Shown: positions 21,054 through 57,391 of the stretch, piece after piece
How positions within the stretch are numbered: the stretch's first letter is position 1
Layout: the number at the start of each line of letters is the position of its first letter
Assembly: GCF_000002425.4 (NCBI RefSeq)
Contig: NC_037265.1
Span: forward strand, 7,572,850 to 7,636,849
DNA: 64,000 nt
Direction of reading: 5' to 3'
Source: Physcomitrium patens
Lineage: Eukaryota > Streptophyta > Bryopsida > Funariales > Funariaceae
The notes under the pieces: generated by a model
Database searches by the model: none
Seen by the model: only the letters and a program-made list of their open reading frames with translations
What the model was told of the DNA's origin: nothing
Position numbers and translations under genes: made by a program

Positions 21054-22357
21054 TATCGTATTACGTGCTTTCTTGCTTAAGAACGCACCGTGTGTCTGGC
21101 TGTAGAAGGTAGTATGGAGATTCACCGATAGTCAAGCAGTGTAAGAGTTTTTGACTGCTGGAATATAAACGACTGCAACAACGTACTGTAAATCTATACG
21201 GATGCTCTTCGACTGCTTGTCGAAGTCTTTTTTTTTGCCCCAGCCGATAGGTCTCTAGACGTTACAGAGAACCCCGAACAACCCAAATTGTTAATCTTCA
21301 ATACTCCTTTGTACTTACGATCTTGTATCCACTGACTGTCCTGTTAGATTAACCCAATAAATTTCATTCACTCCGCATACTCACACCTATAGACACCTCT
21401 TTAATCCTTCAATCACAAATTTAACTCGATTTTACAAAACAGTCAAGAGCATTCAAACCCACTTCATTTAAAAATCCCGATTCACCATTACAACACTGAC
21501 TTCAGCAGCGATTGCCTCAGTCTTCCCAAAACTCTACGAAGAAGAAAAATCCAAATTCTATGTCTTTCCTTCCCCGACCCAAAGCATGAAGCTCCACTCT
21601 CTAATTCCCTTGATCTTCAAAAACCTCCAATAAAACTCGAACTGGTAACCTTGCAAAAGCTTGAAAAACTAGCTCCCCCCCGATTCCCCCTAATCTTATC
21701 CTCCATCCTCTTCAATCTTCCATCTTAGATCCGGAATTGGCTCCCGTCGTCAGAGCTTAGATCCGAAATTGGCTCACGTCATCAAGGCCTTCTCCTCCGT
21801 TTTTACCTTTAAGAGATCCATTTACCATAAACAACGTTCCCTGAAACGGCACAGAGAACAGGACAGTCCGAAACAGAATCGAAACGCCGTAATCGGGACC
21901 ACATTGAGTCCCCCTACCAATTCAGGTCCTATGTTGGGTAAGATGCCCGTAGTAACCTGGATGCTCGCGTAATTGGGTCAAATTGGTCTTCGCGTCAGAC
22001 TGGCTGAGGCCCGTAGTAAGACCCGGATTTTCCCGTAACTAGACTGCATTGGGTTGCCCCACCAATACAGGTCTCATATTGGGTAAGAGGACCCGGATTG
22101 GATTCTCGAAATTTGATCCAATTGGTTCTTCAAACCCATCGTGTGAATTGGTCCTTCTCATCCTACTAATACCCGTTATTAGAATCGAATGGAGCATTTC
22201 AGTATGCCCCGGCTGACTGTAACGGGGTGACTGAACCTGACCACTCAGTACTTGCGCTGGAGTTGGTCGATGCTCCGAATATTCGAGGTAACTGAATATT
22301 AATAAAATTCCCCTTCTTTTTTTTATTTTCACTGTATACTCATGTTACAACACGTCA
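21054..22357 (-). repeat. 3' LTR of D
   Basis: 1304 bp, with ends TATCGTATTACG and CATGTTACAACACGTCA. Its U3 (about 21690-22190) is made of short, partly repeated modules (CCCGTAATCGGGACC, GCCCGTAGTAA) that align with the coding linker of element A. The frames found in it look like chance. Confidence 0.93.
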
Positions 22358-22369
22358 TCCACCCGCTCT
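22358..22369 (-). other. Polypurine tract of D
   Basis: The minus strand reads AGAGCGGGTGGA directly before the 3' LTR. F has AGAGGGGATAGA at 38658-38669. Confidence 0.75.
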
Positions 22370-22419
22370 GAACCTGTGCATCCTCCAGTATGCACGAATT
22401 TATCCAATTGCTGTTTGAT

Positions 22420-23643
22420 TCAGAATATATCCCCTACGTCTTTGTCCAGTTCGTCTTCGTCACCTTCATTATCCAAATCACTTTCATCTTCTTGCTGCGG
22501 AATCTCTGTACCTTCATTAAGGTCTTCGATATTCATCTCTGTGTGTCTTTGTTTAAATATTTTTATTGGCTTCCCTGCAATTGGTATTTTCAATTTTGTA
22601 CCATCTAACTCCCGTAATGAGTAAGTCGCATTATCATGAAGAGTTGTTACCACATATGGTCCAAACCAACGTTTTGAAAATTTCCGCAAAGTACTATGTT
22701 GATTATCCAGACTATTGTCATAAACAAGTACCCAGTCACCTTTCTCGATTGCTTTTGGTCTCAATCGATGTTGCTTATCGAATCGCGCCTTGTTTTGTAA
22801 CCTTGCTCTTTTTAACCTTTCCAATGCTATCTGGACATCTTCCGTTCTTTGCTCCAATTGTCGAATCCTAATAGCCAGAAGTTCTTCTCTTGTCAATCCA
22901 TCTTCCCATGGTAGCATACTCCAAGTAAGTACCTTTTCTTCAATCGGCATAATTGGTTTTTGACCTGTCATAAGTTCTACTGGCATATATCCTGTCACCG
23001 AACTATGTGTTGTTCGATCAGCCCATAATGTAAATGACAAAAGCCGTGGCCACTCTTTAACTTTCCCATTACAAGCTTTAACCAATGCTTTCATAATCGG
23101 TGAGTGACCACGTTCGCTTTTTGCATTCCCTTCTGGATTATAAGCAGTAGTCAGTGATAGTTTAACTCCACATCTTTCAAAGAACTTATGAGCTTCTTGT
23201 GCATTTAATTCTCCACGATCTGCAGTGATTTTTCCTACGCACCCGTAACGGCAAATGACATCTTCAAGCAAAAACCTACAAATCCCCTCTGTAGATTTTG
23301 TCCTCAATGTTCTTCCTTCTACTTGATTTGATAAATCTTCACGAGCTAAAACCAAATATCTCATCTGCCATAACCCAACCGACATAATAACCAAATCAAC
23401 AACCCATTAAAAATGAATAGTCAGAGGATACATAGGATGAAGACCATCTCGATGTCGGATATTAGAATATGATTGACAGATTTCACATGACTCTACAAAT
23501 GAGAGCACATCTCGATACATATTTTTCCACCAATATCGTTCCTTGAGTTTAGCAAAAGTAGCCTAGATTCCTCTATGCCCTGCCCATAAACTATCATGAA
23601 ACTCCTTTAATAATTTTAGTTTTTCTTCCCTTTTGCCTATCAC
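22420..23643 (-). pseudogene. pol: D pol, 3' part: integrase
   Basis: In element order: a zinc-binding region near 23600-23480, then a core with ITADRGELNAQEAHKFF (second Asp) and TAYNPEGNAKSERGHSP (Glu region, written NPEGNAKSERGH where most Ty3/Gypsy have HPQTDGQTERVN). A C-terminal RWFGPYVVTTLHDNATYSL is the GPY/F module, and it ends with an acidic tail (QQEDESDLDNEGDEDELD). There is no chromodomain. It would insert the DNA copy, and this integrase presumably determines the 4-bp, CG-centred target. Confidence 0.8.
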
Positions 23644-25818
23644 TCATTGTGGCATCCCAATTCCTTTCTTCGGTCTCTTCCATAAGAATCCATCTCGGAG
23701 TAAAAATCCATATGCTTTTTTTCTTATTTGTTTGAATTTTTCTGTAGACCAATTCCCCTGCTTAGACAAGGTATTCAAATAATGACCAATATCCAATAAT
23801 TCTCCTTCATAAGATTCTTCAAGAAATAGCTTGTCTTCTCTGTTGAGATTTGATATTGAATAGAATTTCAATCCGACATCATCAATGTCTTCAACCATTT
23901 CGTCCTCCCTCTCGTATCTTGCTCGAGATAGCATGTCTGCTACTAAATTGTCCTTTCCAGTTACATGCTTAAATTCCGGATTTAGTGACTTAATATAAGC
24001 AATCCATCTCAACATTGCAATATCTGGCATTGAACAGTTAATAATCATTTCAAGCAATGGCAAGCAATCTGTTTCAATTACTACTACTGCCCCACTCAAA
24101 TAGTCCTTTTTAGCTTTCATAGCCGAAACGACTCCCCAAAGTTCTCTTTTGACTTGCGAATATGCACGCTGACGAATACTTAAAACTTTAGCCCCAAATC
24201 GAACTGCAAATCTACTCCCATTCCAATCATCTTGACCCACAGCCCATCGAATGGCAATTGCACTAGCGTCTACAGTAAGAATCACTGGTCTACTGCACTT
24301 ATAATCAACCTTCCTCAATATTGGAGGTGACATCAATAATTTCTTCAATCTTTGCATTGCCTGAATATGCCTTTCTTCCCATTCAAATCGGTAACCCTTG
24401 CGTAATAGTTCATATAATGGATCCGCTATGTGAGTAAAATGAGGGATCCAGATTCGATAAAATACACATGCACCCAAAAACCTGCGAACCTCTGTTAAAG
24501 AACCACAATCCTCTTTCATCCTTCCAATTGCATCAACTTTAGTCGGATCTGGTTTTCTTCCGTAAGATCCGCATAAATGTCCAACAATTACAACCTCTCG
24601 CACTTCAAATACGGACTTCATACCCGATAATGTAAGATGAACTTCTCCAAGCCGAGTTAAAATCTTTTCACAATCTTGTATATGATCAACAACATATCTG
24701 CGACACCCCCTCGTATCTAAAGTTTCATCCTTGTCTCCTTCTCTGCACCCTTTTATAGGAACATCATCCAGAAAAGGCATAGTCTTTTCCGGAATAAAAT
24801 CTCTCAATACCTTATTCATCCCATTCATCATATGCGCAACTGAGTTGGTCGCGCCTTGAGGAAGAGTGGACATTCTAACCAATCCAAGCGGTGTCCTCAT
24901 CGTTGTCATATCTCTACTTCCTTCGGCAAGTTGAAATTGATCATAACCTGAATACAAATCATCCATTGAATAGATCGCCCTTCCAGCAAACGCCTCAGCA
25001 AATTCATCCACAATAGGTCCAATTCCTGCATTCCTGACAGTTACAACATTCACCGGCTGCATAACTTGAATAAACCGCAGTGACCCATTCTTCTTAGGTA
25101 CCGTAAACCATCGACTAGAATACGTCGCAAATGAGGGTTCCAATATTTTCATCTTCATCTTTTCTTTTAATAATTCCACCAATTTAGGTAAATCTATCCT
25201 TGATACTGGAATCGGTCTTAGATTCCAACGTACATGCAGTACAGTGAAGATAACCATAGGTGTTATAATATTCCGATCCACACATCCAATTTCATAAGAT
25301 TTGAAGGCAAATGATCTACTTTGTTTAGCCAACATCTTTTTGAAGCAAGTAATTTCTTCCGGCAATAAAGAACCATCAGAATCAATCTTCAATTTTTCAA
25401 AAGTCTCTTTAGTAAACTGATGTCCAATACTCATTGGATCTCTTAAACTTGCTTCTTTTGATGCTTCTCCCATTTGTTCCTTAGAATCTTCTGGTAATGC
25501 TCCGACAACAGGCTTTACCTTCTTATCTGCCGTTTTATATCTCGTCTCTATAGTGACTTCTGGTGCTTGAAAAGATTCAAGTATGGTATAAACCTCTCTC
25601 GAATGAATCTCAACAATCTTATCATGATCCCCTAATCCAATAGGTGTAATCAATTCCAATGAATCTTCCAGTCCATTTTCTTCATAAACACCTAAAATCC
25701 TCTCATCATCTTGCAATGTACCTAACTTGCATAATTCTCCTTCAATATTATATAATCTTTTTCTTTCTTTTCTTTTAAAATCATCAACTTTCTTATACAT
25801 AATATTTCCATTCTCCAA
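23644..25818 (-). pseudogene. pol: D pol: reverse transcriptase and RNase H (FLDD type)
   Basis: One continuous 724-residue frame. After a lysine-rich start and a connector come the RT lead-in (GHQFTKETFEKLKIDSDGSL, about residues 130-150), fingers (SSRWFTVPKKNGSLRFIQ), MDDLYSGYDQFQLAEGSRD, LPQGATNSVAHMMNGMNKV and the catalytic box MPFLDDVPIKG, with FLDD in place of the usual Y-x-DD. HLCGSYGRKPDPTKVDAI and EVRRFLGACVFYRIWIPHF follow. RNase H has LTVDASAIAIRWAVG, KRELWGVVSAMKAKKDYLSG and VIETDCLPLL, then HVTGKDNLVADMLSRA. The family is Ty3/Gypsy-like but well apart from the C elements. Confidence 0.88.
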
Positions 25819-25979
25819 AATACCAATAAAACTCGCATCAAAGGCACCTTCATCTCGCGAGAGTACCTCCTCTTTTGTACCTCCATAATCTCGCTTTATA
25901 GTGGCACCTCCCCAAAATCCTTAAATCCTTCAACAATCTTTGGCAATGGTTTCTCCCTCAACCTATCTCGATTTCGTTC

Positions 25980-26384
25980 ATGGTTAAGAGGTACTGTTAG
26001 AAATTATACAGCATTCCTCCCATCTTCGCTATGTACCTTTGCATAAGCAGAACCATCGTTAAGTACTTTTATTTCCATCCGTATTGTCATAATATAAGGT
26101 TGTCCTAAAATCAACGGATAAGACGTTGTATCTTGAACAAAGAAATGTTGCTCCATTGCAACATCTCCAATCTGAATTTTGACATCTGGACAAGCTCCAT
26201 ATAATTCGCCTCATGTATTATTAGCTGCTCGTAGTGCCCATCCATGTTCCATATCAATTGGCCATTTTTGCTTCTTATAAAGATTTTTAGACATAAGATT
26301 TATTTTAGAACCATAGTCGACTAAAGCAACAATTGGTTCCTCTATATCTCCTACTTTCACCAATATCTCAGTAGTTGCCCTTGC
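25980..26384 (-). pseudogene. D aspartic protease region
   Basis: It aligns with the clearer protease of element G (7605-7255). Recognisable pieces are a GSKINLMSKNLYKK-like start, WPIDMEHGWAL, GDVAMEQHFFVQDTTSYPLILGQPYI and IKVLNDGSAYAK. It lies between the connector and pol. It is not fully open in this copy. Confidence 0.65.
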
Positions 26385-26909
26385 CTAATGCTTTCGAATA
26401 TAATGGCTCAAAGTTTCCATTTCCTTATCACTATAATCTTTGAAATGTACTCGTTGATTATATCCATTCTTTTCATTTGTTGGTTGCTTGTAACCAATAT
26501 CAACCTCTTCTTCGTCTTTATATATCCTTGCATCAATAGCATGACTCATTCCAGTTTCGCCCATTAATTGCCTCTTTCGCTTAATGCTGTCAATGATAAC
26601 ATCATGAAACTCCTTCTTTGCAATTTTCAAGACTTCTTTCAATGTGAATTCCACCTTAGCGTTTAATATACGTTCTTCCAACACCCCTTTCAAATTTGTT
26701 GCCGCTTCAATGTCAGAAAGTAGCTTATAAGCAATTGATTTGCCCTTATCTTTTGTCTCCATTGTTTTTTCTCCCAATGATGCTGAGATATCCTTTACAG
26801 GCAATTCTTGTGAAGCTGCCTTCTGAGCCTTGTCTCCTTGAGTTTGCCTCTTAAAAGAATTTCCTTCTCTAGTATCATCAAAATTTCCTCGTCTTTTTTC
26901 TTCCATCAA
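26385..26909 (-). pseudogene. D gag-protease connector
   Basis: A 174-residue charged linker (KRQTQGDKAQKAASQELPVKD; AKVEFTLKEVLKIAKKEFHDVIIDSIKRKRQLMGE; ending DKEMETLSHYIRKH). Its FTLKEVLKIAKKEFHD stretch is a predicted helix conserved in G and F. The residues just after lead into the protease. The function is unknown; similar linkers in Ty3-like elements join nucleocapsid to protease. Confidence 0.6.
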
Positions 26910-26984
26910 AGCTTCATGTTGGCTCTTAGGAATATATGCATGAACTGAAAGAGACTCAACAGGATCCTCCCAACCTGTTGCACC

Positions 26985-28292
26985 TCATATTGTAGCTGCA
27001 GTTCTCAATAACGCTTCTCGAGGTAATTTCCCTTCTTGCATTGTAGAAACGGCAAAAGCCCAAAACTCACTAGTTTCCGTACTTCCACCAATTTCATCAT
27101 CTACTCTAGCACCATAACTTGCACTTTCTCGTACTACTGTTTCATGCTCTTTTAAGTAATCTTGAACCAATGCTCTCATTCCTCCCTTGCCAAAATTGGT
27201 TTGAAGAAGATCCTCCCTATCTTTCAATACTATCTTCCCATCTTTCCAGCAAATAATTCCCTGCCGTATCATATTATTAAATTCATTGCAATCTTTTCTA
27301 GAGTGTGAAGCATCATCACACCAAATGCATCTTTGTACATATCCTTGTTTTGAAACATTCTTCGAATTGTTTATAGAAGTATTCTCTTCAAGTCTTGCTA
27401 ATTTGATTTGAAGATCTCGCATTCCTCGTATAATTTCTTCTATACCCATATCTGCTTTCTTTGACAAGGATGTCGAAGGTTGAACTGTAGGAATTGTCGG
27501 TGGTGTTGTACGTACTGGAGCTTTGGGTGCTTGTACTGTTTTCAGAATATTGCTCCTATCCTTCCTCCTTTCTTTTTTTGTAAGCAACCCCACCGCATCT
27601 TCAACGTTCTTCCACTTCGTTGTTAATCCTTCATCTTCTTCTTTGTCTTCAAGAAGGGGTTCTAATTTCTCTTGCAATTCTCCATCAGCAGCTTGAAGAA
27701 ATAGATCAACTTTGTTCGGCTCCAATGTCAATTTTTCTACCTTCGATAATTGAGAGTACTGCCTCTCAAATTCCCTTAGTAGCTCTGTTGCTTGCAAATT
27801 CTTGTTAGGTCGTTCAATCCATCCCAAAAATAGCTTCTTAGTAACGCGATCAGCATCTTCCAAGAAATATTCGTCTTTCAATGCATGTGAAAAATCCTCT
27901 CATGAATTCCGACAATGATCCGTAATCGATGTAATGTGGTCCCTTATCTCCGGTATCGTGGCAAGTCCAAATAGTGCAACCATTTTCTTCTCAGAAACCC
28001 GATTTAATTCTATTTCACGAACATAACATCTTAAATACCTTGAAATATTCCTCCCATCAAATTGATCAATTTTATTGACCACTGCTTGCAATGCTTTGGT
28101 TGCCAAAGCTTCCTTTCGATCATTGCTTTGCTGTTGCTGCATTGACAATGAGAAGGCTTGAAACAAACTAGCAATAGACGGATCCATGTGCATACCTTGT
28201 CCTTTAGAAGACTCTCCACCAGAAACTTCTTCCAAAAATCCTTCAAAATTTTTATTTTTGTTTTTAATAAAAATAAAGATAAAATCAACCAA
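26985..28292 (-). pseudogene. gag: D gag with zinc knuckle
   Basis: The N-terminal part (28292-27900) has MHMDPSIASLFQAFSLSMQQQQ and KIDQFDGRNISRYLRCY. The capsid core follows (DADRVTKKLFLGWIERP, LREFERQYSQLSKVEKLTLEPNKVDLFLQAADGELQ). A helix resembling that of G (IRGMRDLQIKLARLEEN) and one knuckle, CIWCDDASHSRKDC (CX2CX4HX4C, near 27330), follow. The capsid core begins about 45 bases from the primer-binding site. Confidence 0.8.
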
Positions 28293-28317
28293 AATCTAAT
28301 ACCTTCCACCTCAAGCT

Positions 28318-28335
28318 TTCACGTCGGATTCACCA
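28318..28335 (-). other. Primer-binding site of D (tRNA-Trp)
   Basis: The minus strand reads TGGTGAATCCGACGTGAA, against TGGTGAACCCGACGTGAA expected from plant tRNA-Trp: 17 of 18 match. It is four bases from the 5' LTR. Confidence 0.88.
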
Positions 28336-28339
28336 CTTA

Positions 28340-29643
28340 TGTCGTATTACGTGCTTTCCTGCTCGAGAACGCACCGGGCGTCTGGCTGTAGAAGGTAGTA
28401 TGGAGATTCGCCGATAGTCAAGCAGTCTATCAGTTTTTGACTGCTGGAATATAAACGACTGCAACAACGTATCGTAAATCTATACGGATGCTCTTTGACT
28501 GCTTCTCGAAGTCTTTTTTTTTGCCCCAGCCGATAGGTCTCTAGACGTTACAGAGAACCCCGTACAACCCAAACTGTTAATCTTCAATACCCCTTTGTAC
28601 TTACGATCTTGTATCCACTGACTGTCTTGTTAGATTAACCCAATAAATTTCATTCACTCCGCATACTCAATCCTATAGACACTCCTTTAATCCTTCAAAC
28701 ACAGACGTAATTTGATTTTACAAAACAGTCAAGAGTATTCAAACCCACTTCATTTAAAAATCCCGATTCACCATTACAACACTGACTTCAGCAGCGATTG
28801 CCTCAGTCTTCCCAAAACTCTACGAAGAAGAAAAATCCAAATTCTATGTCTTTCCTTCCCCGACCCAAAGCATGAAGCTCCACTCTCTAATTCCCTTGAT
28901 CTTCAAAAACCTCCAATAAAACTCGAACTGGTAACCTTGCAAAAGCTTGAAAAACTAGCTCCCCCCCGATTCCCCCTAATCTTATCCTCCATCCTCTTCA
29001 ATCTTCCATCTTAGATCCGGAATTGGCTCCCGCCGTCAGAGCTTAGATCCAAAATTGGCTCACGTCATCAAGGCCTTCTCCTCCGTTTTTACCTTTAAGA
29101 GATCCATTTACCATAAACAACGTTCCCTGAAACGGCACAGAGAACAGGACAGCCCGAAACAGAATCGAAACCCCGTAATCGGGACCACATTAAGTCGCCC
29201 GACCAATTCAGGTCCTATGTTGGGTAAGATGCCCGTAGTAACCTGGATGCTCGCGTAATTGGGTCAAATTGGTCTTCGCGTCAGACTGGCTGAGGCCCGT
29301 AGTAAGACCCGGATTTTCCCGTAACTAGACTGCATAGGGTTGCCCCACCAATACAGGTCTCATATTGGGTAAGAGGACCCAGATTGGACTCTCGAAATTT
29401 GATCCAATTGGTTCTTCAAACCCGTCGTGTGAATTGGTCCTTCTCATCCTGCTAACTCCCGTTATTAGAATCGAATGGAGCATTTCAGTATGCCCCGGCT
29501 GACTATAACGGGGTGACTGAACCTGACCACTCAGTACTTGCGCTGGAGTTGGTCGATGCTCCGAATATTCGAGGTAACTGAATATTAATAAAATTTCCCT
29601 TCTTTTTTTTATTTTCACTGTATACTCGTGTTATTACACAACA
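28340..29643 (-). repeat. 5' LTR of D
   Basis: 1304 bp, starting TGTCGTATTACGTGC, nearly identical to 21054-22357 from about 250 bases in. The flanking TCGC at 29644 is the right copy of the target duplication. Confidence 0.93.
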
Positions 29644-29850
29644 TCGCCTCCTATAGAAGTAGATAATAATGAAGAATTTGAGGTGGAAGAGATATTAGAC
29701 TCAAGGCGGCGCCGAAATAAGTTGGAATATTTTGTTCATTGGCACGGATATGATATTAGTGAACGCACATGGGAGCCATCCAGGAATCTAAGAAATGCAT
29801 CAGCTAAAGTCAAAGTTTTTCATCAACGACATCCATCAAAACCAAGATGA
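29644..29850 (+). pseudogene. pol: C2 pol, last part: chromodomain
   Basis: The continuation of C2 pol after element D. It encodes IEVDNNEEFEVEEILDSRRR, a YFVHWHGYDISERTWEP block and a helix (ASAKVKVFHQRHPSKPR). The aromatic residues F, W and Y sit at cage positions, as in HP1-type chromodomains. It ends with the pol stop at 29850. Confidence 0.85.
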
Positions 29851-29944
29851 AAATCTCTCTTATAAAAGAGACAAGATTGAGGCAAGATAACATTCAATTT
29901 CCTATCCTTGTTTCTAACTTCTTTGCATTTGTGACGCTAATTAG

Positions 29945-30367
29945 ATGGAGAGCCAACAACTAGCGGATTCAACTCAAGAACCTTCGTTTACTGACCTACC
30001 GGACGAGACATTACGATTGTCACAACCTTCAAGATGACGCAATCGAGATGAAGATCTTCAAGAACGACATGTTCTTCCTCAAATAGATGGTGAGATACAA
30101 TGCGTTTGGTATCACGATTTTGGAAGGGACTCCCGATGTTTGGTGATTTTGCTAGAGGTAGGAACAACTCCTGATGACGTTCAAAATGTTCTATTTGAAG
30201 GAAGTTATGAAGAACTCAACAATGATCAAATAACTGGGTGGTCTTCTCGCCCTGGTATGGGACACTACCGATGGTTGAGAGGCCCTATCAATCATCTTCA
30301 AAGAGAACAGAGATCAGGGTATGTGGCGAATACAATTCGTTGCATCATAGATTTCCTCAACATATGA
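29945..30367 (+). pseudogene. Extra ORF (ORF3) of C2
   Basis: 423 nt, starting MESQQLADSTQEPSF 94 bases after the pol stop and in another frame. The C-terminal part reads EVGTTPDDVQNVLFEGSYEEL, RPGMGHYRWLRGPINHLQRE and ends IIDFLNI. It has the same start, stop and length as C1 10399-10821 and I 46436-46858. I know no homologue. It would need its own means of expression (splicing, reinitiation or a subgenomic RNA), which the sequence does not show. Confidence 0.6.
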
Positions 30368-30394
30368 TGACCGCTCCTCATGGAACTCGTCTCT

Positions 30395-30408
30395 AGAAGG
30401 GGGGGTAA
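30395..30408 (+). other. Polypurine tract of C2
   Basis: AGAAGGGGGGGTAA immediately before the 3' LTR. Confidence 0.88.
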
Positions 30409-30960
30409 TGTCACGGCCATAATCATGTAAGTTAATAATTACATATAGAAATAGGTAGAAGTAAGTAAAAGTAGATAAAAGTAAGTTAATTCTATAATAT
30501 TTAATATAGAAGCTTCCTAGAAACTTCCTAGACGCTGCTTTGACTTCATAGGTGTCTTTAATTGACTTTTTGGATTAGAAACGTGGTCAACAAGTTGGCC
30601 ATGTGCCACACATGTTGTTAGCTTGAATATCAAGCTAATTATGTGGCCCACACGTAGAAAAACTTGCCTTGTAAGTCAAGGCATGTGTCCCACAAAGTCA
30701 ACACATATTGGAGGTCCTATAGAACGTCGCCACGTAGCCCCTAGTTAGATAGTATATATAGAGACAAGAGTGAAGGCTTCTTCACTCTTGTCAACTCCTT
30801 TCTTGCTTCTAGTCCAGGTTCAAGAGTCTTTAGTTTCTTGTCTTGTGGCAATAGCCATTCTAGTTTCCTTTTAATATACCTACTTGTTTATATTTTGACT
30901 TATTATATCGAGATAGCCTTTTGGTGTATATTTTCCCTCATCGAGTCTTTGTCCTTGACA
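30409..30960 (+). repeat. 3' LTR of C2
   Basis: 552 bp, the same length as 15994-16545, with about a dozen differences by eye. It is followed by the right copy of the target duplication, CCAAC. Confidence 0.95.
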
Positions 30961-31150
30961 CCAACTTGTTGACCACGTTTCTAATCCAAAAAGTCAATTA
31001 AAGACACCTATGAAGTCAAAGCAGCATCTAGGAAGTTTCTATGAAGCTTTTATATTAAATGTTATAGAATTAACTTACTTTTATCTACTTTTATTTACTT
31101 CTACCTATTTCTATATGTAATTATTAGCTTTCATGATTATGGCCGTGACA
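30961..31150 (-). repeat. 5' LTR of C1, right segment
   Basis: It resumes with CCAACTTGTTGACCACG and ends GGCCGTGACA. It corresponds to 10168-10357 of the C1 3' LTR. It is followed by TTTTC, the target duplication of C1. Confidence 0.93.
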
Positions 31151-32316: not shown

Positions 32317-32319
32317 ATG

Positions 32320-33013
32320 GATGATTAATTCAGTTATTAGAAGCGGTTATTATAGGATTACGGTTAGAATCTGAAAATTAGTAGCAATTATATAGGAGTT
32401 GTAGAAGTTTGTTGGGGAGCCAGATTGTGTTAGTCATGAGCCGAGGTAAGCTTGGTGCTACCTCTTTGTGTTCTTGTTTCTTTGTTTTCTTTGTTGTTGA
32501 AGAGTAATGGATAGTTTCTGAATACTAAGAAGTGAGTCTGTGTAATAAATCAAAGATTGATTTATGAGTTATTGATTATGTTATTAGAGTACTGAGTGAT
32601 TGAATTATATGAAAAGTTATTGGAAGATTGATTATGGATGGAAGATTATGATTTTTGTTTATTGAGAGTTGTGTGTGTGTGTTTCGACAGAGGAAGTTTG
32701 TAATTACAAGAATTCTATGAATTCATATTGATTGGAGTGAAGTCTGTTATTCTTGAAATTGGATAGAATTTATTGAGTTTTGAGTGATCTTTTGAGAGTG
32801 CAAGATTGCACATTGTGATTATCAATTGATGAAGGAGTATTCTTACTGGGAGGAAGCATTGTAGTATTTCTTAGTGTTTTAGTGGTTCTGAATATAGTTA
32901 ATTAAGTGACCCTAACAAGTGAAACCCATGCACTTATTCTTTCCTAGTGTTCGAATTTCCCTATATAGGTTTATTCTGGAAGGAATTATAGAATAAGTAA
33001 AAAAATAATCACA
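32320..33013 (+). repeat. Solo LTR A2 (family of element A), diverged
   Basis: The plus strand aligns with the reverse complement of the element A LTR. Anchors are TAAGCTTGGTGCTACCTCT near 32450, a TTCTTGTTTCTTTG block, GACCCTAAC near 32906, TTCGAATTTCCCTATATAGG near 32950 and the AATCACA end. CAATG flanks it on both sides (32315-32319 and 33014-33018), a 5-bp target duplication. It sits three bases beyond the end of the G LTR and is old. Confidence 0.75.
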
Positions 33014-33937: not shown

Positions 33938-34545
33938 ATGATCTATTATCATGAATATAGAATCATAAGAACCTGAGATTGAAAGATCTATGATGAAATC
34001 TATAGAAACAGAAGACCATGGTTGTTTTGGAATAAGTAATGGCTGAAGAAGTCCGTAAGGTCGATAACGAGGAGTTTTTGATCTTGAGCAAATATCACAA
34101 AATTGTACAAAATCTTCGATTGCCTTCGACATTTGCAGCCACCAAAAATCCCTAGATATTAGTTTCAAAGTTTTATTGTACCCAAAGTGTCCTGCTCCTA
34201 GAAAGTCATGAAGAGCTTGAAAAACACGTAATCAAGCTTCACCTTCTAGAATATGTAGGCGTCCTTCGAAATATAATAGATTAATCTTGAATTCAAACTT
34301 AGAAGTATCATGGGATTTAGTAGAAGTATCCTTGATATCCCAAACAAGAGGATCAGAGGACATACTTGATTGAATTTGCTTCACAAATATTGAATCAACA
34401 GTCAATGTTGATTTTATAGCTCGAAGAAGAAAATACTTGGGCTTCAAGAGAATTGATCTTTGTTGATCAAAAGATGCATCTCCTTCTTTTGGTATAAGAT
34501 AAGAATGTCTAAAAAGAGCATCCAATTGACCTTGTTATTTTTTGG
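33938..34545 (-). pseudogene. pol: Element E integrase remnant
   Basis: Encodes recognisable integrase zinc-domain words (KLISRDFWWLQMSKAIEDF, CDICSRSKTPRYRPYGLLQPL) and the start of the core (SIDFIIDLSISGSYDSIF). A downstream stretch (34525-34232) matches the RNase H-integrase connector of C1 (STLTVDSIFVKQIQSSMSSDPLV). Confidence 0.8.
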
Positions 34546-35926
34546 TGTTGTATTATGTGCTATCTTGCTTGAGAATGCATCGGGCGTCTCGCTGTGGAAC
34601 ATAAAACAATGTTTTACAAGTATTCAAGTAATCTAATGGGTTTCAACCATCTAAATACAAACTATTTCGGATTTCAATGTAAAAGCTTAATTCCAATACA
34701 AAGTACTTAGAAATATTATTTTTAATAACTTCAAGCTATTATAAGTACAAATTCCTTTGTTACTTTGTTAGTTTTATTTTTTTTATTAGTATTATTCTTT
34801 TTTTTTTAAAAAAAAAATTAATTTTTAATTTTTTAATTTTTAAATCCTAACCTTAGACAACAAGCTTTGGTAAGCTGTAATTTTCAATCTGACCGTCCGA
34901 TTGTTGTAAAACTTCTATCACTTGTGTCTTTACAAGTCTTCTAAATGTTCAAGAAGTTTCAATCAAATCCAACTTATCGAATGCAAGAAAATGTCGTAAA
35001 TCCACACTGATGTCTCTTGACCGCCGCCTAGAAAGTTGTTGACAAACTTTGAATTGTAAATTATTCTTTTTTATTCGTTAATTCTCATTCAAACTTTTTG
35101 TCCACCTCTGCCTTTAAGACTTCAACTTATCACGCCAAAATTCACCTTACTCCACTTGATAGATCTCTAGATATTACAAAAATCCTAAATGATCGCAATA
35201 GGTCAACTTCTAATACCTCATTATACTAATGATCAAATATCCTCTATTTATACCGTTAGATTAATACAAATTTTTGCAAACACTTCGCATACTCAACCAT
35301 TTAGATATCTTTAAAATTTCAACCGTAGATGTTTCTTTAATTTTACAAAACAATCAAAAGTACTAGCTTTAATTTTATTGCAAAAAATCCAAATCACCAA
35401 TACAAATACTGACTTTGAACAATGATTGCAAAGTCCTCCCAAACCCTATGAAATTAAATCTTATTCTTTTAAAAGGAGCTTGAAGCTAGCTCTCCATCCT
35501 CAAATCCCGATCTCCAAATGCCCCCCTACTTTGCCCTATGTGGTCATTTTAGTGGCTAGAGGTCTGGTTTCAACCTCGACCCACAATTGGTCGTCTCCCA
35601 GATATCAATCCTACTTATCTTAGAGGGTTTTCAATACTTCCTTATATTCAAATTCACCTTATTATCTACCATTTCATTTTTTTACTTCATCTGTATTGTT
35701 TTTACTAATTTATGGCCTTTTTAAAGTGCTAAAACAGTTTCTACAATCTAGAAAGAAATTTTAATGACAAGCTTTTATCTACTAGCTATCGAGACAAGAA
35801 AATACTCTAATAGCTTTTATAAAGCCTTCCCAAATTATCTTGAGCTCTTATCAACTAAGATGACTAAATATTAATAAAATTATTTTTATTTATATTTCTA
35901 CCATACAGCCGTGTTACAACATGACA
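34546..35926 (-). repeat. Solo LTR B4 (group 2, old subfamily)
   Basis: 1381 bp, TGTTGTATTATG ... CGTGTTACAACATGACA. Flanks are TTGG (34542-34545) and TCGG (35927-35930), a 4-bp duplication with one C-to-T change. Element E sequence continues on both sides. Unlike B1, D and F, its U3 lacks the segment related to element A and has another sequence there (the GGCTAGAGGTCTGG region near 35550). Several T and A runs lie near 34780-34830. Confidence 0.85.
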
Positions 35927-38657: not shown

Positions 38658-38699
38658 TCTATCCCCTCTGAACTTGTGCATCCTCCGGTATGTACCAAT

Positions 38700-40200
38700 T
38701 AACTTAGTTGCCGTTTGATTCATAATATGTTCTCCAAATCTTCGTCTAGTCCATCTCCACTGTCTTTGCTATCCAAATCAATTTCATCTTCCTACTACGA
38801 AATATCTATGTCTTCATTAAGGTCTTCTATATTTATTTCTATATTTCTTTGTTTAAATAATTTCACTCTCTTCCCTACAATTGGTATTTTTAACCTTGTA
38901 CCATCTAACTCCCACAATGAGTAAGTTGTATTATCATGAACAGTTGTTACCACATACAGTCCAAACCAACGTTTTGAAAACTTCCATAAAGTGCTATATT
39001 GGTTGTCCAGACTACTATCATAAACAAATATCCAATCACCTTCTTCAATTACTTTAGGACTCAATCGATGTTGCTTATCGAATCGTGCCTTTTTTTGTAA
39101 CCTTGCTCTTTTTAACCTTTCCAATGCTATCTGCACATCTTCCGATCTTTGCTCCAATTATCAAATCCTAATAGCGAGAAGTTCTTCTCTTGTCAATCCA
39201 TCTTCCCATGGTAGCATACTCCAAGTAAGTACCTTTTCTTCAATCGGCATAATTAGTTTTCGACTTGTCATAAGTTCTACTGGCATATATCCTATCACTG
39301 AACTATGTGTTGTTCAATCAGCCCATAATACAAATGACAAAATCCGTGGCCACTCTCTAACTTTCCTATTATAAGCTTTAACTAATGCTTTCACAATCGA
39401 AGGGTGACCACGTTCGCTTTTTGCATTCCATTCCGGATTATAAGCAGTAGTCAGTGATAGTTTAATTTCACATCTTTCAAAGAACTTAAGAGCTTCTTAT
39501 GCATTTAATTCTCTACGATCTGCAATGATTTTTCCTACGCATCCGTAGTGGCAAATGACATCTTCAAGCAAAAACCTACAAATCCTCTCTGTAGATTTTG
39601 TCCTCAATGCTCTTCCTTCTACTTGATTTGATAAATCTTCACGAGCTAAGACCAAATATCTCATGTGCCATAATCCAACTGGCATAATAACCAAATCAAC
39701 AATCCATTTAAAATGAATAGTCAGAGGATACGTAAGATGAAGACCATCTCGATGTCGAATATTAGAATATAATTAACAGATTTCACATGACTCTACAAAT
39801 AAGAGCACATCTCAATACATATTTTTCTACCAATATCGTTCCTTGAGTTTAATAAAAGTAGCCCAGATTCCTCTATGCCCTGCCCATAAACTATCATGGA
39901 ACTTCTTTAATAATTTTAGTTTTTCTTCCTTTTTGCCTATCACTCGTTGTGGCATCCCAATTCCTTTCTTCGGTCTCTTCCATAAGAATTCATCTCGAAG
40001 CAAAATTTTATATGTTTTTTTTCTTATTTGTTTGAATTTTTTTGTAGACCAATTTCTCTGCTTAGTCAAAGTATTCAAGTAATGACCAATATCCAATAAT
40101 TTTCCTTCATAAGATTCTTCAAGAAATAGCTTGTCTTCTCTGTTGAGATTTGATATTGAATAGAATTTCGATCCGACATCATCAATGTCTTCAACCATTT
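38700..40200 (-). pseudogene. pol: F pol, 3' part: integrase remnant
   Basis: It aligns with D 22420-23950. The recognisable parts are a C-terminal GPY-like module (RWFGLYVVTTVHDNTTYSLWEL) near 38950, a core segment near 39500-39690 (VIMPVGLWHMRYLVLAREDL) and the zinc-domain side near 39830-40200 (EKLKLLKKFHDSLWAGHRGIW, with conserved His). It is decayed. Confidence 0.75.
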
Positions 40201-42116: not shown

Positions 42117-42279
42117 AATACCAATAAAATTCGCATCAAAGGCACCTTCATCTCGCGAGAGTACCTCCTCTTTTGTACCTCCATAATCTCGCTTTATAGT
42201 GGCACCTCCCCAAAATCCTTAAATCCTTCAACAATCTTTGGCAATGGTTTCTCCCTCAACCTATCTCGATTTCGTTCAT

Positions 42280-42682
42280 GGTTAAGAGGTACTGTTAGAA
42301 ATTATACAACATTCCTCCCATCTTCGCTACGTACCTTTGCATAAGCAGAACCATTGTCAAGTACTTTTATTTCCATCGGTATTGTCATAATATAAGGTTG
42401 TCCTAAAATCAATGGATAAGACGTTGTATCTTGAACAAAGAAATGTTGCTCCATTGCAACATCTCCAATCTGAATTTTGACATCTGGACAAGCTCCATAT
42501 AATTCGCCTCATGTATTATTAGCTGCTCGTAGTGCCCATCCATGTTCCATATCAATTGGCCATTTTTGCTTCTTATAAAGATTTTTAGACATAAGATTTA
42601 TTTTAGAACCATAGTCGACTAAAGCAACAATTGGTTCCTCTATATCTCCTACTTTCACCAATATCTCAGTAGTTGCCCTTGC
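42280..42682 (-). pseudogene. F aspartic protease region
   Basis: The counterpart of D 25980-26384, with very few base differences. It has the same SKINLMSK, GDVAMEQHFF and ILGQPYI pieces. Confidence 0.65.
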
Positions 42683-44600
42683 CTAATGCTTTCGAATATA
42701 ATGGCTCAAAGTTTCCATTTCCTTATCACTATAATCTTTGAAATGTACTCGTTGATTATATCCATTCTTTTCATTTGTTGGTTGCTTGTAACCAATATCA
42801 ACCTCTTCTTCGTCTTTATATATCCTTGCATCAATAGCATGACTCATTCCAGTTTCACCCATTAATTGCCTCTTTCGCTTAATGCTGTCAATGATAACAT
42901 CATGAAACTCCTTCTTTGCAATTTTCAAGACTTCTTTCAATGTGAATTCCACCTTAGCGTTTAATATACGTTCTTCCAACACCCCTTTCAAATTTGTTGC
43001 TGCTTCAATGTCAGAAAGTAGCTTATAAGCAATTGATTTGTTCTTATCTTTTATCTCTCTTGTTTTTTCTTCCAATGATGCAGAGGTATCTTTTACAGGT
43101 AATTCTTGTGAAGCTGCCTCCTGAGCCTTGTCTCCTCGAGTTTGCCTCTTAGAAGAATTTCCTTCTCTCGTATCATCAAAATTTGCTAGTTTCTTTTCTT
43201 CCATCAAAGCTTCATGTTGGCTCTTAGCAATATATACATGAACTGAAAGAGACTCAACAGGATCCTCTCAACCTGTTGCACCTCATATTGTAGCTGCAGT
43301 CTTCAATAATGCTTCTCGAGGTAATTTCCCTTCTTGCATTGTAGAAACGGCAGAAGTCCAAAACTCACTAGTTTCCGTACTTCCACCAAGGTCATCATCT
43401 ACTCTAGCACCATAACTTGCACTTTCTCGTGCTTCTGTTTCATGCTCTTTTAAATAATCTTGAACCAATGCTCGCATTCCTCCCTTGCTAAAATTGGTTT
43501 GATGAAGATCCTCTCTGTCTTTTAATGCTATCTTCCCATCTTTTCAACAAATAATTTCTTATCATATCATATTATTAAATTCATTGCAATCTTTCCTAGT
43601 GTGTGAAGCGTCATCACACCAAATTCATCTTTGTACATGTCCTTGTTTTGAAACATTCTTCAAATTATTTATAGAAGTATTCTCTTCAAGTCTTACCAAT
43701 TTGATTTGAAGATCTCGCATTCCTCGTATAATTTCTTCCATCCCCATATCTGCTTTCTTTGATAAGGATGTCGAAGGTTGAACTATAGGCATTGTTGGTG
43801 GTGTTGTGCGTATTGGAGCTTTGAGTGCTTGTACTGTTTTCAGAATAATGCTCCTATCCTTCCTCCTTTCTCTTTTTGCAAGCAACCCCACTGCATCTTC
43901 AACGTTCTTCTACTTCGTTGTCAATCCTTCATCTTCTTCTTTGTCTTCAAGAAGGAGTTCTAATTTCCCTTGCAATTCTCCATCAGCAGCTTGAAGAAAT
44001 AGATCAACTTTGTTCGGCTCCAATGTCAATTTTTCTACCTTCGATAATTGAGAGTACTGCCTCTCAAATTCCCTTAGAAGCTCTATTGCTTTCAAATTCT
44101 TATTAGGCCATTCAATCCATTTCAGAAACAGCTTCTTAGTAACGCGATTAGCATCTTCCAAGAAATATTCGTCTTTCAATGTATGTGAAAAAATCTCCCA
44201 TGAATTTGCATAACGATCCGTAATCAATGTAATATGGTCTCTTATCTCCGGTATTATGGCAAGTCCAAATAATTCAACCATTTTTTTCTCAAAAACCGGA
44301 TTTAATTCCATTTCACAAACATAACATCTTAAATACCTTAAAATATTCCTTCCATCAAATTGATCAATTTTATTGACCACTGCTTGCAATGCGTTGGTTG
44401 CTAAAGCTCCTTTTCGATCTTTGCTTTGCTGTTGCTACATTGATAATGTGAAGGCTTGAAACATACTAGCAATAGATGGATCCATGTGTATACCTTGTCT
44501 TTTAGAAGAACCTCCACCAGAAACTCCTCCCAAAGATCCTTCAAAATTTTTATTTTCGTTCTCCATAAAAATAAAAATAAAATCAAACAAAATCCAATAC
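42683..44600 (-). pseudogene. gag: F gag and connector
   Basis: The connector (43207-42683) is nearly identical to that of D. The gag part (44600-43283) holds IDQFDGRNILRYLRCY, VTKKLFLKWIEWPNKN, ERQYSQLSKVEKLTLEPNKVDL and the helix IRGMRDLQIKLVRLEENT. The zinc-knuckle region lies near 43600. It is decayed in parts. Confidence 0.78.
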
Positions 44601-44615
44601 CTTTCACCTCAAGCT

Positions 44616-44633
44616 TTCACATTGGGTTCACCA
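44616..44633 (-). other. Primer-binding site of F (tRNA-Trp)
   Basis: The minus strand reads TGGTGAACCCAATGTGAA; 16 of 18 positions match the complement of plant tRNA-Trp. It is four bases from the LTR, as in D and G. Confidence 0.85.
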
Positions 44634-44637
44634 CTTA

Positions 44638-46067
44638 TGTCGTATTACATGCTATCTTGCTTGAGAACGTGCAGGACGTCTGGATGTAAGAGGTAGTATG
44701 GTGTTTCGCTAGTACTCAAGCAGTCTATCATGTTCTTGACTATCCAAATACAATCTATATTGGATTGCAATGTAAAAGCTTAATTCCAATATAAAATGCC
44801 TAGAGATCTTATATACTTCAATCTCTTTTATTATTTTTATTTTATTTTATTTATTTTATATTTATTTTATTTTATTTTATCTTTATCATTAATTACCTTA
44901 ATCGTAGACCGTGAACTTCGGCAAGCTGTGATCCTCGATCTGTCCTTCTGACTTATTGTGAAACATCTATCGCTGGTATCTCTTCAAGTCCTTTCGAATG
45001 CTCAAGAAGTTCCAGTTCAACTTTGCTTACAAATTATGAGGCTATGCTGCAATCCGCATCGATGTCCCTTGGTTGCTCACCAATATTTCTCTTATCCCTG
45101 TCGGTAGGTCCCCATTTATCATAGAAACCCTAAACAACCTCTAATTTGCCAACTCCCAATACCTCTTTAAACTGTTGGCAGATATCCTCTGTCCGTACAA
45201 TCAAATTAATACAACCATGTATGCATTCAGCATACTCAACCTTCTAGACAACTCTGAATATCAACCACAGAAGTATCTCCCATTCCATCAACAATCAAGA
45301 GTACTAGATTTTTCTCTCTTTCAGAAAAAAAGATCCAGTTCACTAATACAACACTAACTTTTAGCAACGATTGCCTCAGTCTTCCTAAAACCCTATGAAG
45401 AAAAAAAAATCCCCAATTCTCTGTCTTTTCCCTCGAAATCATGAAGCTAGCTCTCGGACCCTTAAAAATCCTAATTCTCCAATTTTTCCGAAAGCATGAA
45501 GCTAGCTCTCCGACCTTTAAAAACTGTGATTCTCTCCTTTTTTATTTCTTAACCTATCCTCCCCTTTTACCCTAAGAAGATCCTATTCTTCCGCCTTGGA
45601 CTCCTCGAATTGGAACAGCTGACGGAGCTTTCTCTCCCATTTTTGCCTTTAAGAGATCTTTTATCGAAAGGACGTTCTCTGAACGGCATAAAGAATGGAG
45701 CAGCCTGAAACAGAATTGGAGCCCCGTAATTGGACCACATTAGGGTCCCCGACCAAGTCAGGTCTCATATTGGATAAGAGGCCCGTAATAGGACCTAGAT
45801 TAGAGGTCTTCTGAAATTGGATCTAATTGGCTCTTCAAACTAGGCTCATCCGTCGTTAAATTGATCCTTTTCCTTTCTGCTGACTCCCATTATTGGAATC
45901 GAATGGAGCATTTGAGTATGCCCCAGTTGATTATAATGGGGTGACTGAACTTGGCCTCTCAATATTTGCACTGGAATTGGCCACCGCTTCTAATACCCAA
46001 GGTGACTAAATATTAATAAATCTTATTCATTTATATTTTTATCATATAGACGTGTTACAACACGACA
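44638..46067 (-). repeat. 5' LTR of F
   Basis: 1430 bp, TGTCGTATTACATG ... CGTGTTACAACACGACA. It contains the U3 segment homologous to the element A linker (about 45540-45850). It is followed by ACGT, the right copy of the target duplication. Confidence 0.93.
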
Positions 46068-51327: not shown

Positions 51328-52408
51328 TGTCGGGGTAGAGAGAGTTTGCCTCAAGAAAATGCTGGGCTTCTGGTTGTCACTAATTATTCAATCAAGCTTG
51401 AAAATAAGAGAAGCCCTAAGTTTATATATAATTTTTCTCTTTTTGAGTAATTACACTAAATACACAATCCTCAAGTAACCCACAACTTCCAAAATATGAT
51501 AAAATCTTCTAAATCCTTGTTTATTCTTATGTGGAGATTTTTCCAAACTTCAACACATCATATCTCTTAATCCGACCGTCCAAACAAACTCAAATTTTAC
51601 ATGAGGTACTAATGTATTCTTATTAACTTCTACAACAATTTTCAACTGCAAATTCGTTGCAAATCTTGAGATATCTTGAAAACCCTAACGGTCACTTCAA
51701 ACCCTTGTTTTTATACATCCGCGTGCAATGTTTTTCATATCTCACAAAATATAAGCTCAAATTCTACGAAATTTGTATGTATAGCTTCTTAACACAAAAA
51801 CATATTTTCCAAAAAGTTTGAGCCAAAAATTCATCCGAATACTCAAGTTATGGCTCCAACCATTACTACAAACAAAACCGCTTACTTACTGCCTTTGATT
51901 TGGAAGCGCCGCCTTCAATTCCTTATAATTCCTTCATTTGAACTCCAAAAGCAATAATTCTTTCGTGAAAGATGTAGGTCTTGAAATCGCCGATCCAGTC
52001 GAACCTTTCGATCTTCAAAAGCTACTGTAAAACTCCACGTACTCTCAAAAGAGTAACAATATATCTTAAATAAACACCTTAACTTCAAATGGCTATAATT
52101 TTTTCATCCTAACTCCAAATCCTCTAATTTTTGTATACAAATTGTACCCTAAACCCTAAACTTTACAACCCTAGCTTATAATCTCCGAATGCCTCCGAAA
52201 AAGGAACCCTAATCCCTAATAAGGCCTCGGGCAGCCTCCTCAAAGTCCATTGGACATGGTATTCGACCAATAGGGATGAAGTTCTCCATTCCTTGCCTTC
52301 ATCCGACCATGCCTTACTTTCATCCCTCCCAATTAGCCTCCTATTAGTTTAGATTTTCATCCTTAGGTTTCCACCTTCTCCCAAGGCTTCATACTAAACA
52401 TTTAGGTC

Positions 52409-52446
<38 letters not shown>

Positions 52447-52604
52447 TAATATCAAAATCAAAAGAAGTTAAGAAACAAAGTAAAGTTTCTTATACCAACT
52501 CCTTATAATTTAATCTACTAGCCACTCTAATACACATCTAGATTTATCAACATATAACATGTTTTAGCTAATTTTTACACACTGTAAGCATTTACAGTAC
52601 GACA
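51328..52604 (-). repeat. Solo LTR J (distant member of the G LTR family)
   Basis: 1277 bp, TGTCGGGG ... CAGTACGACA, with the perfect 4-bp duplication GCGT (51324-51327 and 52605-52608) inside gag of I. The sister site in E (near 57200) is uninterrupted (TTGTCGTAGACTC). It shares with the G LTR the GCCTCGGGCAGCCTCCTCAA block (52226-52245, compare about 31842-31861) and a similar middle part. No coding sequence is supported. Confidence 0.85.
52412..52441. repeat. (TA)15 microsatellite in solo LTR J
   Basis: An uninterrupted TA run of 30 bases. Confidence 0.95.
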
Positions 52605-54979: not shown

Positions 54980-55168
54980 GGTCCCTATTATAGATCAAAA
55001 AACTCGTTTTCTCACATAGTATCTTCTTTGGTAAATGTGCTCCTCATTTTGTAATTGTGTTGCTTCTTTGGACAATATTGAGCAGTGTGCTTAGCTTCTC
55101 CACAATATAAGCATAATCCTTTTTGGCAACGTCGAGTCTTTTCTTGCTTTGTGAGAGGTTTAAAACGT
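54980..55168 (-). pseudogene. gag: Element E gag, zinc-knuckle side
   Basis: It aligns with C1 14410-14600, including the CLYCGE-like knuckle region and the KPLTKQEK-type lead-in. G2 interrupts it at 55168. Confidence 0.6.
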
Positions 55169-56500
55169 TGTCATGTTATGGTTTGGCTATTATATGAAAA
55201 TAATATAATTATGTACTTAATATATAATTTACTAAGTAACATGGTGAGAGCCATGTTAGCAGATTTTAGTTGGTTTTAGAATATAATTTGATTATAACCT
55301 TGAGAAGAGGTTCTTTAAAAAGATTACTATAAAATTTGTATAACTTTAATTTCTTTTGATAGTGGCTTTTAAGATTGGTTTTGGTTGATAGTAACTTCTA
55401 AATATTTAGAATCACCTTTGTTAGACATTGGTGACCTTTGAAAATTTCTTTTGGTTCTTTTATTTGGTGTTTAGAGCATAAATTATGTAAATCTTATTAG
55501 AAAAAGGATTGAAGAAGGATTTTGGTAGCAAAGGGAGTAATTAAGGCACCAATATAGATGAATGGAGATGAATAATGAAAATCTCTATTCCTATTGGTCA
55601 AAAATCATAACCAATGGGATTTGAGGAGGCTGTCCGAGGCCATATTAGAGTTTAGGGTTAGTTTCTCAAGGCCATTCGAGTTTTGAAGGCTAGGGTCAGA
55701 AGGTTTAGATTTTTGGCTATGGTTTTGGTGCAAGTTTTGTATGGTTTGGAGTTTATATGAAGGAGATACAAGTGTTCAAAGTTAAGGTGTTGATTTGAGA
55801 GCTATTGTCATTTTTTTGGCATAACGCACGCGTATAGATGGCAATTGAGGATCGGTGACTGCGACTAGAGAGAGCACTTTTGCAGCTATACTTTTCATAC
55901 ATTGCTTATTGAATTCCAAGTTAAAATGAAGGAGTTATTAGATTTTGAAGTCAGTGCATGCAATCTAAGTGTAGTAAGTAACCCGATTTGCTAGTGGTTG
56001 TCTCTTGACCTATGTCTTGAGCAATTTGACAAGGTTTTGGCTCAAAATTTCAAGGAATGTGTAATTTTATGTTAGTAAATTTTATGCATAATTTTTATGA
56101 CATTTGAGTATTGGATTCTTGATATATTAAGAAAATAGTGTTCGGATGCTTGTAAATTAGGATTTAGAGCATCTGCTAGGGTTTCTTAGATGCAAGAATA
56201 TCAGGAGTGAATTTGCAATTGTTTTTTTTTTTTTGATAAAATTGAAGGGTGAATTCTACCTATTCTATAAACTTGAAACAAATTGAATGGTTAAATCAAA
56301 AGTTATGATTTTCTAAAGTTAGGGACAAAAAAATCTTTTGGGAAAAAATATGTTTTGAAGGGGTTTTGTTATATTTTGAGTTTTATTTAAAATAAAGGAG
56401 TTTTGGGAGGCTAACACAAGATTCATATAAAGGTTTAAGCTACACTCTCTATAGCTAGATACCTAGTGTATTTCTAGACAGCAAATCATGCCATACGACA
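55169..56500 (+). repeat. Solo LTR G2 (G family, opposite orientation)
   Basis: 1332 bp, TGTCATGTTATGG ... CATGCCATACGACA, the reverse complement match of the G 5' LTR. Flanks are ACGT (55165-55168) and ATGT (56501-56504) inside gag of E. The corresponding site in I (about 50630) is uninterrupted and reads AACGTACCG. It carries the CATGGTGAGAGCCATG hairpin (55240-55255). Confidence 0.88.
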
Positions 56501-57391
56501 ATGTATCATATCAATTTGCATTGATTCTGGCTTTGACGAATACGTTTCAAAAAACTTGGGAGCTGATGCCATTACTTGACTTGTTCCTCTCCAATCAAAC
56601 ATTTTTTCTTGACGCCTTTCAAATAAATGATTATCGCATGTAATGGCTTGAGTAATAAATTGTTCCAAAGATTCTAATTTTGGTATTGTCAATAACAAAT
56701 CTTTGACACTATCCTTCAATCCATATCAAAATTGGTTGATAAGTGCTTTGTCATTCTAGTCCATTTCGCAAGCAAGATTTTGGAATTCGGTAGCATATAT
56801 AGTAACTGATTGTGATCCTTACTGTAAGGATAAAAGCTTAGTCTTTCTTACTTACTCTCAATGACTTTCGCGAAATGTGGCCGTAAACACCTCTAGATAT
56901 GAATTCAAATCATGAAGGAGTCATGAATCTTCTTCCATTAAAGGTGCAAACTAAGAAAGATCACTTCCTAATTGTAGTGCGCCTATAAATCTGACTTGGA
57001 TAAATCCATCAGAATATTGGAAAGGATGCAACCTTAGATAGAGCTTGACTTATTGTAAAATTTCTTGAAATTTTGATCTTGTTCCATCAAACTTCTCAGG
57101 CTTACTAATCCTTGTCTGTGTCATACATGTAGAAGTAAAACTCCCTGGATTTGGTTGTGACATTGATCTACTTGCTTCTTTCAACTGCACAACTTCTTGT
57201 CGTAGACTCTGAACTTCTTCAATAGGCATAAGCATAGTACTTCCATGATTCACATTGAAAATATGTGCGATTTCTATTCTTAGAGAATTGACAAGCTCAT
57301 GAAGATCTGCTATAGTTGCAAATCTATTCTCACTTCCATTGAGAGTAGCATCCATAATCTTTCCTTCTATAGATAACTCAAATGAATTCAA
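56501..57391 (-). pseudogene. gag: Element E gag
   Basis: The N-terminus MNSFELSIEGKIMDATLNGSEN is at 57391, then FTSTCMTQTRISKPEKFDGTRSKF, and near 56700 KDSVKDLLLTIPKLESLEQFITQAITCDNHLFERRQ. It matches the gag of I closely and C1 more distantly. It is decayed. Confidence 0.72.

Follow-up and report, generated by a model that had tools for sequence, protein, structure and literature searches.

Most long terminal repeat (LTR) retrotransposons of plants duplicate 5 bp of target DNA when they insert, with such duplications accounting for 93.4% of the plant LTR elements surveyed by Neumann et al. 2019 (PMC6317226). Phygy, described there as a species-specific clade of non-chromoviruses in the moss Physcomitrium patens, is reported to prefer NCGN at its insertion sites (PMC6317226). 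Its commonest duplication is 4 bp, and its insertion into Tcn1 is the most frequent repeated nested pair, most such pairs being in P. patens (Jedlicka et al. 2019, PMC6911290). Targets containing CG are also used by two animal elements. Ginger1, a DNA transposon, takes 4-bp targets that are CCGG (75%) or CCGT/ACGG (24%), all of them NCGN (PMC2836005), and ZAM, an LTR retroelement of Drosophila, targets CGCGCg, a site that its integrase binds in vitro (PMC2527525). Here we analyze a 64,000-nucleotide stretch of P. patens contig NC_037265.1 (hereafter the window) and the LTR elements within it that insert at 4-bp, CG-centred sites, foremost the full-length, non-chromodomain Ty3/gypsy element D.

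We interpret the CG-targeting elements as Phygy-type elements whose integrase acts with a 4-bp stagger centred on CpG, the target CpG decaying later, and we assign this interpretation a probability of about 0.92. The integrase would join both LTR ends (CGACA and TGTCG) to the target, with the stagger centred on the CpG step, and a new copy would thus be bordered by NCGN on each side. After insertion, the two CpGs would decay independently to TG or CA, leaving mismatched duplications. Four observations carry this interpretation: a 4-bp spacing in most LTR pairs, a central CG far above background, a pattern of decay in the flanks, and a relationship to elements of bryophytes and ferns. The integrase itself probably reads the C-G base pairs, and the decay probably arises from methylated CpG.

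An earlier note on this DNA proposed the 4-bp, CG-centred target with CpG decay, and window junctions, genome flanks and LTR pairs all bear it out. Its suggestion that this would be a new integrase habit is not supported, given the published NCGN preference of Phygy, and we make no claim of discovery for the habit itself. Beyond what is in print, the present analysis adds the strength of the preference, the decay of the target CpG afterwards, the mismatch between the two flanks of certain LTRs, and the occurrence of integrase relatives in organisms other than P. patens.

CG-centred targets in the window

Self-comparison of the window revealed nested LTR elements in a repeated background, and many insertions therefore have an uninserted relative within the window itself. 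All coordinates below are positions within the window (Table 1). The LTRs of the CG-targeting elements end in TGTCG...CGACA or decayed versions of it, and because they carry TG/CA ends, the insertion boundary is fixed.

Every one of the nine readable outer LTR junctions in the window fits NCGN or its one-step CpG decay, and CG persists on at least one flank at seven of them (solo LTR B1, with its unequal flanks, was entered as two sites). CG occurs 1281 times in the window (frequency 0.020, observed/expected 0.62), which makes its presence at that exact place in 7 of 9 sites improbable by chance (binomial P about 4e-11). Our re-reading of the duplications of D, J, F, G2 and B4, and of the CG-centred flanks of B1, agrees letter for letter with the earlier note. 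The same is true of the one-sided target ATGA at B7, for which the note had cited ACGA in a sister site; we find ACGA in both related sites, at 11.9 kb and 60 kb. A one-sided ATGT at the G LTR was not reproduced. ATGG follows the LTR end there, and it touches another LTR-like sequence.

Uninserted relatives of several other targets also carry CG. Among five relatives of the F target read in the window, three have ACGT, one ATAT and one GTGT. The single relative read for J, near 57200, has TCGT, and the single one read for G2, at 50625, has ACGT.

Target flanks across the genome

We searched 470,438,890 bp of genome sequence in 101 contigs. When 3 mismatches were allowed, a pattern of 23 bases from the LTR end matched 6446 times, against 0 matches for the control; the 100 matches listed lie on contigs numbered up to C26, apart from one on C80. 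For the first LTR end, flanks were collected with nine free positions and one position other than T (V) ahead of the LTR-end pattern. This gave 220 matches, of which 100 were listed; 13 were dropped as internal junctions between LTR and primer binding site (locus L092 among them), leaving 87 outer flanks. The search with the other LTR end gave 1282 matches, and 4 internal junctions among the 100 listed were dropped to leave 96 outer flanks. Listed matches are the first in genome order, from contigs C1-C11 in the 220-match search and C1-C2 in the 1282-match search, and the counts in this section refer to them. Internal or outer status was read directly at 60 loci (L038-L097), and the remaining matches were sorted from their ten printed bases.

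This is the check that the earlier note had proposed, run on a sample, and it favours the CG-centred target. At the first end, the central dinucleotide was CG in 60 of 87 flanks, with 15 CA, 11 TG and 1 TA. At the other end CG reached 81 of 96, followed by 11 CA, 3 TG and 1 TA. The centre was thus CG or a C-to-T or G-to-A derivative in all 183 flanks. Merging flanks within 2 mismatches of one another left 64 at the first end (CG 40, CA 14, TG 9, TA 1; CG 40/63 without the internal L092) and 66 at the other (CG 52, CA 10, TG 3, TA 1). At the remaining eight offsets of the 10-bp flank, CG appeared 0 to 5 times.

The outer target bases vary (ACGT, ACGG, CCGG, CCGT, GCGG and others), with a weak preference for A or C first and T or G last that is plainest at the 1282-match end. 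This variability rules out a ZAM-type CGCGCg target for the moss elements.

Duplication length and CpG decay

Duplication length was read from LTR pairs with both outer ends within reach, 16 in all (10 among loci L038-L097, L092 excluded, and six window elements). In 7 of the 16 the 4-bp flanks are equal, and in none are flanks of 3, 5 or 6 bp. Four further pairs are unequal through a single transition that falls within the CpG.

Two sequence variants of the LTR differ in how often CG is kept in the first-end flanks. Among the matches listed, CG was kept in 52 of 65 flanks of the TGCTTTC variant versus 8 of 22 of the TGCTATC variant (Fisher P 4e-4, computed with 66). The first variant is that of element D, whose LTRs are 96.2% identical (1254/1304), and the second that of element F, whose LTRs agree at 1296 of 1428 aligned positions (90.8%). 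With one element dated per variant, the lower CG share of the F-type variant would fit decay with age. Duplications of 4 bp with a CpG mark insertions and record CpG decay separately on each side.

Two groups of loci have unusual flanks. At L042, L073, L093 and window LTR 4959-6086 the two flanks are unequal, although each is an NCGN-like 4-mer in its own right; separate insertions have perhaps recombined there. Loci L068-L071 (contig C1, about 2.0-2.4 Mb) have near-identical flanks, GTTGATACGG on the left and ACGGAAAATA on the right, reflecting either duplicated insertions or a repeated target.

Weighing the explanations

An integrase might, like retroviral intasomes, need only a flexible pyrimidine-purine (YR) step midway along a 4-bp stagger, in which case CA and TG flanks would be original targets and not decay products. 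Flexibility of the central YR step is documented for retroviruses that duplicate 4 bp (PMC4422553). A YR centre is present in all 183 listed outer flanks and in 20 of 22 flanks from a sample of the TGCTATC variant taken without the V filter, and the L088 pair has ATGG on both sides. YR-step flexibility alone does not explain the CG excess, however, because in the window just 8.9% of YR steps are CG, compared with 52/66 (P 5e-42) and 40/64 (P 3e-26) of the collapsed flanks among the matches listed. TA, the commonest YR step of the window, was seen in just 1 of 87 and 1 of 96 listed flanks (3 of 22 in the unfiltered sample). Moreover, decay is indicated by mixed pairs, in which CG on one flank is matched by TG or CA across the insertion, and by several uninserted relatives that bear CG. 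On this evidence we consider a bare YR requirement unlikely.

Recognition may instead involve methylation, with the integrase or a bound host factor putatively recognizing methylated CpG and sending insertions to methylated DNA. The CG targets and the resemblance of flank decay to that of methylated CpG would suit this idea, and the window targets whose sequence allowed comparison sit in other repeats. Yet a methylated repeat of any kind would be expected to lose CpGs after insertion, regardless of whether the target was methylated when the element arrived, and CG targets serve Ginger1 (PMC2836005) and ZAM (PMC2527525) in animals as well, with the ZAM integrase binding its site in vitro. We regard a methylation-dependent choice of target as quite unlikely. 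It is very improbable that the pattern reflects wrongly set LTR boundaries, duplicated segments or a small number of target repeats in common, and not a choice of target. CG does lie inside the LTR ends themselves (TGTCG, CGACA), and the flanks GTTGATACGG and ACGGAAAATA recur on contig C1. Against this, the boundary is set by the TG/CA termini, and the CG excess at the centre survives collapsing while neighbouring offsets of the listed flanks stay low.

Several results count against a CpG-centred integrase followed by decay. The search patterns require intact LTR ends and so are biased towards young copies, and the listed matches come first in genome order. The unfiltered TGCTATC-variant sample of 30 loci (7 internal, 1 duplicate, 22 outer flanks) was more mixed, with CG 7, CA 8, TG 2, TA 3 and 2 misfits. 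The misfits, L039 (GGAG) and L066 (CAGG), are the sole clear departures from NCGN or its decay, and their LTR ends look intact. T stands ten bases out in four of the five TA or misfit flanks, which the V filter would drop; because that filter removes flanks with T at this position, exceptions may be under-represented among the matches listed. Five of the 16 LTR pairs are unexplained by one CpG transition (L042, L071, L073, L093 and window B1), perhaps through recombination between separate insertions or through other mutation, and L068, L069 and L071 have common flanks and hence are not independent. Only one of three uninserted relatives of the D target has CG (CCGC, near 11.1 kb), and none of three for B4 does (CTGG in two, neither CG nor TG in one). 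These relatives are diverged copies themselves, so CpG loss in them is not surprising, yet it is no proof either. Finally, kinship to Phygy was judged from published traits. The filter bias, together with the mixed state of the uninserted sites, weighs slightly in favour of the YR-step account and against the CpG-centred integrase.

We also considered a broader and unlikely idea, that a Phygy-like integrase clade of mosses, liverworts and ferns would recognize CpG directly, possibly in its methylated form, and so target CG-methylated repeats without a chromodomain, while its chromodomain neighbours would reach the same repeats through a histone mark. The strength of the preference makes Phygy a good plant system in which to ask by what means a Gypsy integrase recognizes two base pairs and whether it senses CpG methylation.

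Lineage and relatives

The CG-targeting elements are very probably Phygy. They share with it the 4-bp duplications, the NCGN preference, the host species and insertion into a chromodomain element, and, as expected of Phygy, no chromodomain was found in the integrase reading frame of D; against the published descriptions, which are the basis of the comparison, no difference emerged. Placement in Phygy in the strict sense is probable on these descriptions.

Element D contains the Ty3/gypsy polyprotein domains reverse transcriptase, RNase H and integrase. The integrase match (Pfam rve) in open reading frame (ORF) 22420-23394 scores 20.6 bits, below the curated cut-off of 32.6 bits. A Pfam scan of this ORF gave no Chromo match at E 0.1. 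Assignment of D to the chromoviruses (Tcn1 and others) was rejected, the ORF having no chromodomain match after the integrase.

Sequence comparison links the moss elements to those of bryophytes and ferns. For the integrase ORF, 120 of 251 relatives were listed; the named ones in this list come from Riccia and Ceratopteris, and many of the 120 carry PF00665 or PF17921. The named relatives of the reverse transcriptase ORF (120 listed of 358) come from Riccia and Physcomitrium patens, including a P. patens protein 86% identical to the query over 166 residues. Two scans for relatives in viral contigs confirmed none.

Relatives also appeared at seven loci in GTDB contigs (L001-L007), six in a Trichormus metagenome-assembled genome (MAG) and one in Synechococcales AVDCRST_MAG81. 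These Phygy-like contigs in cyanobacterial MAGs are apparently plant contamination, and the Trichormus bin suggests the Azolla symbiosis. In six of the relatives (L001-L005 and L007), CGACA stands ahead of the primer binding site, which reads GGTGAACCCGACGTGAA in four and GGTGAACCCAACGTG in two. L001 and L002, read through, each have a single LTR that borders internal sequence at either end, and neither shows an outer flank. The primer binding site of D, at 28318-28335, we take to be of the tRNA-Trp type. Passages of PMC6317226 place tRNA-Trp among the primers of non-chromoviruses, in terms that do not tie it to Phygy. The same source calls Phygy species-specific, whereas integrase relatives occur here also in Riccia, Ceratopteris and the Trichormus-bin contigs.

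Two animal elements invite closer comparison. Like the moss elements, ZAM is an LTR element with a palindromic, CG-containing target and a 4-bp duplication (3/3 insertions; PMC3276498). It differs in needing CGCGCg, having env and living in Drosophila, whereas the moss elements strongly fix the central CG only. Ginger1 shares a Gypsy-type integrase, TGTNR termini and 4-bp NCGN duplications, but it is an animal DNA transposon with terminal inverted repeats whose outer target bases are restricted too (PMC2836005). The LTRs and reverse transcriptase of the moss elements rule out their identity with Ginger1.

Neighbouring elements

The CG-targeting elements share their superfamily and neighbourhood with chromodomain elements (B), which differ in having a chromodomain and 5-bp duplications without CG (three cases in the window). 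A chromodomain has also been described in RLG1 of P. patens (PMC7466625), in a study that lists polymorphic RLG families as well. The inner B element encodes its chromodomain at 29656-29847 (Pfam E 2.6e-15), and the outer B element was grouped with this chromodomain-bearing family through DNA similarity. By our own reading the B elements are Tcn1-type.

The earlier note had set these neighbours apart by 5-bp sites with no CG pattern. This stands for TTTTC and CCAAC; its third site, ACATA, belongs to a chromodomain-type pair beside them and is matched by ACATG, so that the two sides are unequal. The note's premise that Ty3/Gypsy elements normally give 5-bp duplications agrees with the plant survey cited above but not with Drosophila Gypsy, which prefers 4 bp at palindromic TATA or ATAT targets (PMC3276498).

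Table 1. Elements, junctions and coding features of the window, with the target bases read beside them
Feature	Position	Strand	Flanks or remarks
Element D, full-length non-chromodomain Ty3/gypsy	21054..29643	-	TCGC 21050-21053; TCGC 29644-29647
Element D, integrase part	22420..23394	-	rve match under cut-off; GPY/F-like WFGPYVV by eye; no chromodomain match
Element D, reverse transcriptase/RNase H reading frame	23644..25818	-	Pfam RVT_1, RT_RNaseH and RT_RNaseH_2 above cut-off
Element D, primer binding site	28318..28335	-	TGGTGAATCCGACGTGAA; similar block in relatives L001-L005, L007
Element F, full length	36800..46067	-	ACAT 36796-36799; ACGT 46068-46071
Solo LTR B4	34546..35926	-	TTGG 34542-34545; TCGG 35927-35930
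Solo LTR J	51328..52604		GCGT 51324-51327; GCGT 52605-52608
Solo LTR G2	55169..56500	+	ACGT 55165-55168; ATGT 56501-56504
Solo LTR B1	4959..6086	-	ACGC 4955-4958; GCGT 6087-6090; unequal, both CG-centred
B7, one-sided target ATGA	33938..33941	+	adjoins LTR end 33937
G LTR, one-sided flank ATGG	32317..32320	+	adjoins LTR end 32316
Outer B element with nested insertions	9806..31150		5-bp TTTTC 9801-9805 and 31151-31155
Inner B element, recipient of D	15994..30960		5-bp CCAAC 15989-15993 and 30961-30965

The two B elements and D form a three-level nest at 9801-31155, in which a B element (TTTTC) contains a second B element (CCAAC) that in turn contains element D. With D lying in a chromodomain element, the nest resembles the published Phygy-in-Tcn1 arrangement.

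Two further features of the window involve LTR-like sequences. The left LTR of element F holds a small LTR-like insert at 37187-37602 (TGTTAGGGACATAG...TCCATGACA) with TCAAC on each side (5 bp), while its right LTR is without the insert. A separate element at 1-7215 has LTR-like copies at 1-429 and 6761-7189 that are 91.6% identical, and a plant-type block resembling a primer site, TGGCACCGTTATCGGGG, lies near 6425-6445 within it.

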